Shown here: positions 43,424-46,762 of the stretch, in pieces
Layout: each line of letters starts with the position of its first letter
How positions within the stretch are numbered: position 1 is the first letter of the stretch
From: Gammaproteobacteria bacterium
GTDB lineage: Bacteria > Pseudomonadota > Gammaproteobacteria > Eutrophobiales > Eutrophobiaceae
Reading direction: 5' to 3'
NCBI GenBank assembly: GCA_016179185.1
Contig: JACORW010000029.1
Location: 1-46,804, forward strand
DNA: 46,804 bases
The notes under the pieces: model-generated
Databases searched by the model: none
What the model was told of the DNA's origin: nothing
The model's input: only the letters and a program-made list of their open reading frames with translations
Program-made: the position numbers and the translations under genes

Positions 43424-43467
43424 TCGCTTTGTCCAAGGCGCAGCTTCGGCCTCACTCCGTCTGGAAC

Positions 43468-43790
43468 TGGTGCCCGGGGCCGGATTCGAACCGGCACGGC
43501 ATTGCTGCCAAGGGATTTTCCTGCCGCTGCGATTTTCACCGCTGCGCGCCGCGCGCGCATTTGTGGTCTGGACTTTCCCTTTGCCACATCCGGTACTTCC
43601 GGATGACAGGCAGGGGCCGTCAAGTCTCTACACTTTCCCCGGTGCCGTTGCGCCGGGGCTTAGCTCGGGATCGCCACCACCATCACGTGCTGAGGGTTCC
43701 CCGAATTTGACCCCATTCACACCAGCCGTTTCCGCGCTGGGTGCTCAACTGCGTCAAGTCCCTTGTGTCTACCTATTCCACCACCCGGGC
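43468..43790 (-). tRNA. leuZ: tRNA-Leu(UAA), interrupted by a group I intron
   Basis: Exon 1 is 43756-43790 (GCCCGGGTGGTGGAATAGG... to GGGACTT) and exon 2 is 43468-43519 (AAAATCCCTTGGC... to CCGGGCACCA, with CCA encoded). Joined, they give a normal class II tRNA with a long variable arm, 7-bp acceptor stem GCCCGGG/CCCGGGC, T-arm GCCGG-TTCGAAT-CCGGC and anticodon loop CT-TAA-AA. The order pgsA - tRNA-Gly - tRNA-Cys - tRNA-Leu is that of E. coli glyW-cysT-leuZ. The intron lies between U34 and A35. Confidence 0.93.
43520..43755 (-). ncRNA. group I self-splicing intron in tRNA-Leu
   Basis: 236 nt, no open reading frame. It starts after U34 and ends with G (omega-G). P1 forms between exon GACTT and intron GGGTC, with U.G at the splice site. 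Core elements characteristic of the IC3 group follow in order: ATTCGGGGAACC, ATCCCGAGCTAAGCC, GTAGAGACTTGACGGC and AAAGGGAAAGTCCAGACC. A P2 hairpin CAGC...GCTG and a P8/P9-type hairpin (ATCCGG-AAGTA-CCGGAT) are visible. The insertion site is the same as in cyanobacterial and plastid tRNA-Leu(UAA) introns. Confidence 0.92.
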
Positions 43791-43820: not shown

Positions 43821-43894
43821 TGGAGGCTGGGGTCGGAATTGAACCGGCGTACACGGCTTTGCAGGCCGCTGCATGACCACTCTGCCACCCAGCC
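43821..43894 (-). tRNA. tRNA-Cys(GCA)
   Basis: 74 nt with encoded CCA; acceptor GGCTGGG, anticodon loop CT-GCA-AA, T-arm GCCGG-TTCAATT-CCGAC. Lies between tRNA-Leu and tRNA-Gly. Confidence 0.95.
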
Positions 43895-43991: not shown

Positions 43992-44067
<76 letters not shown>

Positions 44068-44102
44068 AAATCTAGTTTCCAACTCAGCGCGTTGCGCCTC
44101 GC

Positions 44103-44121
44103 CCAACTGAGCTATTCCCGC
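44103..44121 (-). repeat. duplicated 5' fragment of tRNA-Gly
   Basis: 19 bases identical to the first 19 bases of the tRNA-Gly gene (GCGGGAATAGCTCAGTTGG on the minus strand), 36 bases upstream of it. Not a functional tRNA. A remnant of duplication or of an integration event. Confidence 0.8.
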
Positions 44122-44203
44122 GAAACTCCGCCGAAAAGAGGCAGGTATTGTAGTGCGCAGCGTCAGCGTGTCAAACAATCCGTTTTCAGAAGTCGTGCTT
44201 ATC

Positions 44204-44767
44204 CTATTGTTTTCGCGCTGTTTCCCGAAGCTTCGGCCAGGCGCTGAGCAGATACTGGCACAGTGAGATCAACGTCAGCACGGCCGCAACGTATAACAAT
44301 ACCAACCCGGTTTCGTAGACCGGCAGTCCCAGGACCGGCTCGCGGAACAGGAGCAGGATCAACGCGATCATCTGCGCGATGGTCTTTATCTTGCCATAGA
44401 CTGAAACGGCCACTTTGCTGCGCGCACCCAGCTCCGCCATCCATTCGCGTAAAGCGGACACGGTGATTTCCCGACCCACGATCACGGCCGCGGGCAGTGC
44501 CAGGCGTATGCTGGGGTCCGCCTGAACCAGCAGCACCAGCACGACGGCGACCATCAGCTTGTCCGCCACCGGGTCAAGAAATGCGCCCAGCGGAGAGGTC
44601 TGGTTCAGTCGCCGCGCAAGATATCCATCCAGCAGATCGGTCAGCGCCGCTGCGCTGAACACGGCACAGGCCGCGTAATTGCGCCAGTCCACCGGAAGGT
44701 AGAAAACCAGCACGAGGACCGGGATCATTACAATGCGCAGCAACGTCAGTGTGTTCGGGATATTCAT
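44204..44767 (-). CDS. pgsA: CDP-diacylglycerol-glycerol-3-phosphate 3-phosphatidyltransferase
   Basis: 187-residue membrane enzyme making phosphatidylglycerophosphate. The motif D-x2-D-G-x2-A-R-x8-G-x3-D-x3-D is seen as DLLDGYLARRLNQTSPLG then AFLDPVADK. Several hydrophobic helices. The start overlaps the uvrC stop by 4 bases, the classical uvrC-pgsA arrangement. Confidence 0.96.
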   Translation of the reverse strand: MNIPNTLTLLRIVMIPVLVLVFYLPVDWRNYAACAVFSAAALTDLLDGYLARRLNQTSPLGAFLDPVADKLMVAVVLVLLVQADPSIRLALPAAVIVGREITVSALREWMAELGARSKVAVSVYGKIKTIAQMIALILLLFREPVLGLPVYETGLVLLYVAAVLTLISLCQYLLSAWPKLRETARKQ

Positions 44768-46596
44768 GGATCACCGTGCAGGCCGGCGTAGATGCGCCGG
44801 GCGAGATTCTTGTTAATCCCGTTGACCTTGGCAAGATCATCCGTGCCCGCGCGCATGATGCCCTGCAAACCACCGAAGTGCCGCAGCAGCGCCCGCCGCC
44901 GTCCCGCGCCGATGCCGGGGATGCGCTCCAGAACCGACGCACCGCTGCGGCGCTGTCGGCCCTGCCGGTGCCCTGTTATCGCAAAGCGATGGGCTTCATC
45001 GCGGATTTCCTGCAACAGCAGCATGCCGCCATGTCCGCCGGCCAGCCGCCGGGCGGAAGGTGCCCCCGAAATAATCAGCGCGTCCTGCCCGGGACGCCGG
45101 TCCGTGCCCTTGACCACACCCACCAGCGGAATGTCCGAAAGGCCCAGTGCGCGCAGCGCTTCCGCCGCAACGCCGACCTGGCCCCTGCCGCCGTCAATCA
45201 CAATCATATCCGGCAGCGGCTCCGACCCCGACATGGCGTGCCGGTAACGGCGCTCCAGCACCTGACGCATGGCCGCGTAGTCGTCGCCGGGCGTGATCCC
45301 GGCCACTTTGAAACGCCGATAACAGGATTTGATCGCCCCCTCCGCACCGAAAACGACACAGGCTCCGACGGCTCCTTCGCCTTGAGTATGACTGATATCG
45401 AAACACTCGATGCGCCCGGGTGGCGCGGGCAAGTCCAGCGCCTCCGCCACCTGCTGGAGGCGTTCCTGGTGACGGGCGCGGCTTCCGAGCTTTTGGCGCA
45501 ATGCCAGCGCGGCGTTATCCCGCGCCAGCGCCACCCACCGGGCCTTGACACCGCGGGCCGGAACCCGGATGGCGACACGTCTGCCGGATTCGGCCGCAAA
45601 TACCTGTTCCAGTAACGAACTGCCATCCGGCCTCTCGCTGACGAGGATTTCCGCCGGGATATTCCCGCGCCCGGCGCCGGACAGGTAATACTGCGTAAGG
45701 AATGCCTGCAAAATGCCGGCACCGTCGGCATGCGCGCCGCCATGGGGAAAGTAGCCGCGATTGCCCAGATTGCGTCCAGCGCGGATCATGAACAACTGTA
45801 CGCAAGCCTGCCCCTGCTCCGCTGCCATCGCAACAACGTCGCACTCTCCATGGGGAACGCTGGCGACCTGTTGCTCCTGGACGCGGCGCAGCGCCGCGAT
45901 CCGATCGCGATAGCGGGCGGCGCGCTCAAACTCCAGCGCGGCGGCGGCCCGTTCCATCGGGCCGGTCAGCCGCTGGATGATTTCCTCATTGCGACCCTCG
46001 AGAAACAATTCCGCATCGCTGACATCCGCAGCATAGTCTTCGGCTGTGACCAGGCCGACGCAGGGGGCGCGGCAGCGGCCGATCTGGTGTTGCAGGCACG
46101 GGCGGCTGCGGTTGCGGTAGTAGGCGTCTTCACACTGGCGGACCTGGAACAGTTTCTGCACCAGATTCAGCGTGCTGCGCGCAGAAGCTGCGCTGGGAAA
46201 CGGCCCAAAATAACGCCCCTCCCCGCGGCGCGCGCCGCGATGGAAGGAAAGTCTGGGAAACGCATGACCGTGTTCCAGAAACAGACAGGGGTAACTCTTG
46301 TCGTCCCGAAATACGACGTTATACCGGGGATGCAAAGATTTGATGAGGTTGCTTTCCAGCAGCAGCGCCTCACCTTCGGTGCGTGTCACGGTCACTTCGA
46401 TGTCGCGAACCTGGTCCAGCATCGCGCGCGACTTGGGGGAATCCAGGGCGCGGTTGAAATAGCTGCCGACGCGTTTGCGAAGATTTCCGGCTTTGCCGAT
46501 GTAAATGACGTTGCCGTCCCCGTCCAGCATCCGGTAGACACCGGGGCGACTGGTCAGCCGGCGGACGAACTCTGGCGCTGATGCGCGCTCAGTCAT
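44764..46596 (-). CDS. uvrC: excinuclease ABC subunit C
   Basis: About 610 residues, full length. The GIY-YIG nuclease is at the N terminus (RPGVYRMLDGDGNVIYIGKA), the cysteine block CLQHQIGRCRAPCVG is at about 155-170, a UVR motif follows (AAAALEFERAARYRDRIAAL), then the RNase H-like second nuclease (IECFDISHTQGEGAVGACVV) and C-terminal HhH (LERIPGIGAGRRRALLRHFG). Makes both incisions in nucleotide excision repair. Start taken at ATG 46596 from family length; the frame is open to 46662. Followed by pgsA and the tRNA block. Confidence 0.96.
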   Translation of the reverse strand: MTERASAPEFVRRLTSRPGVYRMLDGDGNVIYIGKAGNLRKRVGSYFNRALDSPKSRAMLDQVRDIEVTVTRTEGEALLLESNLIKSLHPRYNVVFRDDKSYPCLFLEHGHAFPRLSFHRGARRGEGRYFGPFPSAASARSTLNLVQKLFQVRQCEDAYYRNRSRPCLQHQIGRCRAPCVGLVTAEDYAADVSDAELFLEGRNEEIIQRLTGPMERAAAALEFERAARYRDRIAALRRVQEQQVASVPHGECDVVAMAAEQGQACVQLFMIRAGRNLGNRGYFPHGGAHADGAGILQAFLTQYYLSGAGRGNIPAEILVSERPDGSSLLEQVFAAESGRRVAIRVPARGVKARWVALARDNAALALRQKLGSRARHQERLQQVAEALDLPAPPGRIECFDISHTQGEGAVGACVVFGAEGAIKSCYRRFKVAGITPGDDYAAMRQVLERRYRHAMSGSEPLPDMIVIDGGRGQVGVAAEALRALGLSDIPLVGVVKGTDRRPGQDALIISGAPSARRLAGGHGGMLLLQEIRDEAHRFAITGHRQGRQRRSGASVLERIPGIGAGRRRALLRHFGGLQGIMRAGTDDLAKVNGINKNLARRIYAGLHGDP

Positions 46597-46762
46597 GCCC
46601 GACCGCCCCCGGTGTCCCCCGACGCCGCCGCCCCGCCCAATACACGTTTCGCACCTGCGCACGCGCCGGCTTCAGATGGATCCGACGTTTAGGCGTGGCA
46701 ATTTTTACCGGCCGGATCGACCCGTTTTTCCCCGGTATACAATTCATGCGCGGCGACTTATC

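Follow-up and report, generated by a model that had tools for sequence, protein, structure and literature searches.

Group I introns of subgroup IC3 split the transfer RNA (tRNA) gene for tRNA-Leu(UAA) after U34 in cyanobacteria and plastids. Small group I introns are also present in tRNA genes of proteobacteria, as in tRNA-Ile(CAU) of Azoarcus and tRNA-Arg(CCU) of Agrobacterium, and Vepritskiy et al. reportedly described in 2002, in J Bacteriol, a tRNA-Leu(UAA) intron from a deep-subsurface gammaproteobacterium, a Pseudomonas isolate. Here we analyze a split tRNA-Leu(UAA) gene of a gammaproteobacterium of the family Eutrophobiaceae (assembly GCA_016179185.1), located in a stretch of 46,804 nucleotides (nt) of contig JACORW010000029.1 that is referred to below as the window. 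We are highly confident that its intron is a functional self-splicing group I intron and an endonuclease-free member of a lineage probably spread by homing. The cyanobacterial and plastid introns resemble it in tRNA and site; those of Azoarcus and Agrobacterium sit in other tRNAs. The intron of Vepritskiy et al. is reportedly of the same tRNA and class and similar in size. Interrupted tRNA-Leu-TAA and tRNA-Arg-TCT genes have been published for the Beggiatoaceae, namely Candidatus Thiomargarita nelsonii and BOGUAY (PMC4853749); these belong to a different lineage, and their secondary structure and subgroup were not determined by those authors. A review of 2014 names bacterial tRNA group I introns for cyanobacteria, alpha- and betaproteobacteria only (PMC4033280).

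An earlier note on this DNA, made from the letters alone, proposed that the gene is split after U34 by a 236-nt intron with a terminal G, and the exact coordinates are borne out. With introns allowed, ARAGORN calls a tRNA-Leu(taa) with intron 36,236; without introns, it calls tRNA-Cys and tRNA-Gly only and no tRNA-Leu(UAA) at the locus. The joined exons, a check that the note had suggested, give a perfect 87-nt tRNA-Leu(UAA) fold with CCA encoded. The intron is inserted between U34 and A35, the site of the tRNA-Leu(UAA) intron family. Its boundary is confirmed by the uninterrupted genes of same-family relatives, and the 5' exon is nearly identical to that of intronless relatives. The parts of the gene are as follows.

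43790-43468, minus strand: tRNA-Leu(UAA), whole split gene
43756-43790, minus strand: 5' exon, tRNA positions 1 to U34 (ARAGORN, joined-exon fold, relatives)
43520-43755, minus strand: group I intron, 236 nt, terminal G (RF00028, covariation in 85 introns, empty sites of relatives)
43468-43519, minus strand: 3' exon, A35 to the encoded CCA (ARAGORN, joined-exon fold)

The intron matches the Rfam model RF00028 at 43765-43554 with 31.2 bits, covering model positions 1-253; E is 4.2e-6 when the whole genome is searched. A default Rfam scan returns no group I match at the intron because this score is below the curated gathering cut-off of 50. Together with the core helices seen in an alignment, this covariance-model match agrees with the group I assignment of the note. 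The minimum free energy of the gene is also low relative to shuffled sequences (z=-3.2). For the alignment, 85 introns of this site, each of at most 276 nt, were aligned with MAFFT, and the RNAalifold consensus contains the group I helices. Paired cells were then counted across the 85 introns, with the helices as written from the window sequence; the aligned introns are related, so the cells are not independent events. Nearly all of the 510 cells of P3 and of the 425 cells of P7 are paired, with two-sided changes in 104 and 110 cells, respectively. P8 (98% of the cells of its outer four pairs, 46 two-sided changes), P4 (94%, 32 changes) and P6a (88%, 138 changes) behave similarly. Slid versions of P3 and P7 pair in 18-59% of cells, and slid helices overall mostly in 18-64%. 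P2 as written is paired in 72% of cells versus 77% when slid by two, and its exact register is given no weight because the slid version fits better. The positions of the helices are listed here.

43753-43758, minus strand: P1, 5' side, exon CUU plus intron GAC, U34.G wobble at the splice site (first three pairs in 85 of 85 introns)
43744-43749, minus strand: P1, 3' side, internal guide GUUGAG (alignment pair counts)
43709-43714, minus strand: P3, 5' strand GGGGUC (pair counts)
43613-43618, minus strand: P3, 3' strand GGCCCC (pair counts)
43700-43705, minus strand: P4, 5' strand (pair counts)
43664-43669, minus strand: P4, 3' strand (pair counts)
43637-43658, minus strand: P6a hairpin, with a short loop here; in relatives the site of an HNH gene of about 475 nt (two-sided changes, insert lengths)
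43622-43626, minus strand: P7, 5' strand GACUU, guanosine-site helix (pair counts)
43571-43575, minus strand: P7, 3' strand AAGUC (pair counts)
43582-43612, minus strand: P8 hairpin (pairing of the outer four pairs)

The group I core (P3, P4, P6, P7 and P8) is complete in the window intron, including the P3/P7 pseudoknot that a group I intron should have. In P1, 94% of cells are paired, and the C-G, U-A and U.G pairs beside the splice site are invariant. The P1 of the earlier note, GACTT/GGGTC, is wrong in its 3' side: the U.G pair at the splice site is present in all 85 introns, but GGGTC is not the partner strand. GGGTC lies within 43714-43709, the 5' strand of P3, and was rejected; in most introns this strand reads CCCGUC, for which pairing with GACUU is impossible. 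Judged on its small size and tRNA site alone, the intron fits subgroup IC3.

Following established group I chemistry, the precursor would fold so that P1 places its U34.G pair at the catalytic core. After U34, the attack would come from a guanosine bound in P7, U34 would then attack after the terminal G, and the exons would be joined. The product would be a normal tRNA-Leu(UAA) decoding UUA (and UUG).

A tRNA search (35 matches) and BLAST of the gene found one tRNA-Leu(UAA) in the genome, and no second one in this assembly of 115 contigs, which is 86% complete. A fragment at the start of contig 103, considered as a second copy, is not a tRNA-Leu(UAA), and tRNA-Leu(CAA) and tRNA-Leu(UAG) are encoded by separate genes. 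Intron-bearing relatives likewise have a single tRNA-Leu(UAA) place. The sole-copy status that the note had raised is thus strong but not final. UUA accounts for 22 of 12,496 codons in the long open reading frames of the window and is present in 14 of these 28 frames. Given that a single tRNA-Leu(UAA) is seen and UUA is in use, the spliced tRNA should be the sole reader of UUA, and the growth of the cell would depend on splicing.

The earlier note also suggested that a tRNA-Leu intron is unusual for a proteobacterium. This suggestion does not hold, because introns sit at the site in numerous gamma- and betaproteobacteria as well as in genomes already published (PMC4853749). When named genomes were scanned for the intron pattern, at least 119 stretches matched; after removal of chance matches and duplicates and addition of further loci from genome searches, the set comprises at least 106 distinct introns of this site, and nearly all of their record titles are those of gamma- or betaproteobacteria. 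In a sample drawn evenly over the class of the window, 23 of 369 genomes match the intron pattern. An intron at this site is common, not exceptional. Matches in Zixibacteria, Treponema, Sphingobacteriales and a few others proved to be uninterrupted genes matching by chance. Among the records, locus L145, titled Klebsiella pneumoniae, contains the same 702-nt intron as G023:C64; its title is probably wrong, because genome G023 belongs to the family of the window. L148 (Desulfobulbus) and L174 (Chloroflexi) appear misbinned. Searches of phages and plasmids with the tRNA-Leu gene gave no full-length match. In Vibrio phage 11895-B1, positions 100338-100388 match the intron core (86% over 51 nt); the annotation there is terminase large subunit, and the region perhaps holds a group I intron.

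An intron tree, built with P6 removed and weakly supported, places the window intron with that of the same-genus genome G001 (99) and then with that of the same-family genome G002 (94). They fall within clade A, which comprises 53 introns; its named hosts are gammaproteobacteria, one of them titled Muproteobacteria. The Thioploca and Thiomargarita introns belong to the same clade. Clade B contains the introns of betaproteobacteria, Lysobacter, Rhodanobacter and Stutzerimonas, the last of these to be compared with the isolate of Vepritskiy et al., reportedly a Pseudomonas, whereas the window intron is in clade A. The Lysobacter and Ottowia introns are nearly identical, and their hosts belong to different orders. 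Within the family of the window, the intron is present in G000 (this genome), G001, G002, G005, G008, G012 and G023, and many other genomes have uninterrupted genes. G008 carries the intron with an HNH gene; in its congeners G021 and G030 the tRNA-Leu gene is uninterrupted and its exons are identical, which makes a clean empty site. G023 similarly differs from its uninterrupted congeners G011, G032 and G036, with exons that are close, not identical.

Among the matches listed, 11 tRNA-Leu introns of 684-739 nt carry a frame of 154 codons in P6, antisense to the intron (L077, L080, L083, L090, L093, L111, L132, L137, L145, L147 and L185). The 154-residue protein is an HNH endonuclease by its match to PHROG 10822 (E=1e-46); PF13392 matches weakly, under its cut-off. 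The genes are 59-77% identical to each other, and the ratios of nonsynonymous to synonymous changes (pN/pS of 0.20-0.37; dN/dS near 0.09, close to saturation at these distances) show a gene that appears to be under purifying selection in the relatives. In a tree with 57 phage homologues, the eleven genes group as a single clade (95), and homologues are common in viral contigs. In L137 the ATG is missing at the aligned start, with an in-frame GTG just upstream. All eleven introns fall in clade A, and G005 (L169) retains an HNH remnant in its intron. In G012 (L063), a palindromic insert like a miniature mobile repeat is found in P6 at the place of the HNH gene. The window intron has a P6a loop of 10 nt, and neither the HNH gene nor a remnant of it is seen there. 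The HNH enzyme of the relatives would probably cut the uninterrupted tRNA-Leu gene, and repair would copy the intron in; the anatomy, the selection and the empty sites point to such homing. In the part of the literature that was covered, no tRNA-Leu intron is reported to hold an HNH gene, and this gene in the relatives' introns may be new.

In the same genome, the gene for tRNA-Arg(UCU) (L069:1476-1775, G000:C44:11914-12213) is also interrupted after U34, by a group I intron of 223 nt (36.4 bits), and the joined exons give tRNA-Arg(tct). This intron is likewise patchy in the family. It was considered whether the same HNH gene is present in the tRNA-Arg introns; a PD-(D/E)XK gene was found instead, in G003, G004 and G019. 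The proteins of G019 and G003 match PF11645 (E=2.6e-40 and 2.5e-38), and that of G004 was assigned by likeness. They are related to PDB 2ost, which we take to be I-Ssp6803I, the PD-(D/E)XK homing endonuclease of the cyanobacterial tRNA-fMet intron. Like that intron, the relatives' tRNA-Arg(UCU) introns encode in a tRNA gene an endonuclease of this family, which is unrelated to the antisense HNH protein of the tRNA-Leu introns; the window intron is without an endonuclease. The introns of the Leu and Arg genes are homologous to each other (69% over 206 nt, score 147 versus a shuffle maximum of 100.5) and nonetheless fall in separate groups. The gene for transfer-messenger RNA (tmRNA) contains a further group I intron, of 285 nt, in its T-loop (L071:421-705, G000:C67); its 19.9 bits are weak alone, and the joined halves give a tmRNA with the tag ANDDNYALAA. 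Such T-loop introns are known from 21 phyla (PMC11915505).

We consider it about an even chance that the gammaproteobacterial tRNA-Leu(UAA) introns are a mobile family with an HNH gene of their own, antisense in P6 and acquired a single time from phage-type HNH enzymes, that the window copy has lost this gene, and that tRNA-Arg(UCU) introns in the same bacterial family use the unrelated PD-(D/E)XK enzyme. Several points weigh against a functional intron spread by homing. Splicing in the cell is what the fold and its conservation suggest when read with group I chemistry, the Rfam score is under the cut-off, and a second tRNA-Leu(UAA) could sit in the missing part of the assembly, although it would set this genome apart from every intron-bearing relative checked. 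The selection estimate is near saturation. The presence of the HNH gene on the intron tree takes 11 changes and fits no better than with labels shuffled; gain and loss of the gene are therefore indistinguishable.

Some of these points would also fit a degenerate intron, that is, a pseudogene that has lost splicing while the cell relies on a further tRNA-Leu(UAA) gene outside the assembled sequence. The low Rfam score and the incomplete assembly agree with this, as does the end of the intron, GGCAGG instead of the common GGUAAG or GGUACG. However, both exons are intact and perfectly paired, every core helix is complete, and the 95-96% complete genomes of G001 and G002 keep the intron in one copy each, which makes decay very unlikely. 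A different history, which leaves splicing untouched, is vertical inheritance without homing of an ancient intron shared with Cyanobacteria and plastids and lost in most proteobacteria. The insertion site is the same as in cyanobacteria, and the grouping of the window intron with G001 and then G002 follows the hosts. Such inheritance is nevertheless rather improbable in view of the identical uninterrupted genes in congeners of the endonuclease-bearing genome, the near-identical introns across orders and the selection on the relatives' endonuclease genes. Chance resemblance or an assembly artefact found no supporting point and is refuted by the occupation of the site in at least 105 other distinct introns, by the intron in the same tRNA cluster of independent genomes and by the two-sided changes in the helices. 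A functional self-splicing intron of a probably homing lineage is thus the reading that we prefer.

The split gene is the third tRNA in a cluster of the order uvrC, pgsA, tRNA-Gly(GCC), tRNA-Cys(GCA), tRNA-Leu(UAA), in agreement with the earlier note, which had placed it in a gammaproteobacterial tRNA operon. The arrangement is that of E. coli, and its tRNA order is shared by most of the relatives that were checked.

43821-43894, minus strand: tRNA-Cys(GCA), upstream neighbour
43992-44067, minus strand: tRNA-Gly(GCC), upstream neighbour
44204-44767, minus strand: pgsA-like gene, CDP-alcohol phosphatidyltransferase (PF01066, E=3.5e-39)
44764-46662, minus strand: uvrC (UvrC domains and GIY-YIG)

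A partial copy of the 5' part of tRNA-Gly (87% over 30 nt) lies at 44098-44127, 54 nt from the real gene. A stretch like CAGCTTCGGCCTCACTCCGT, 3' of the tRNA-Leu gene (43434-43467), is found again on contig 44 (L069), and the tRNAs of contig 44 and the tmRNA are flanked by short repeats of the type AGCTACAAGC.

Split genes of this kind are overlooked by intron-free tRNA annotation and by the default Rfam cut-off. Among close relatives the site is variously filled, empty or filled by an intron with an endonuclease gene, so that inheritance versus mobility of trnL(UAA) introns, a question of long standing, is directly testable in bacteria. A sole UUA-reading tRNA that must self-splice would be a clear natural test of the reliability of self-splicing.
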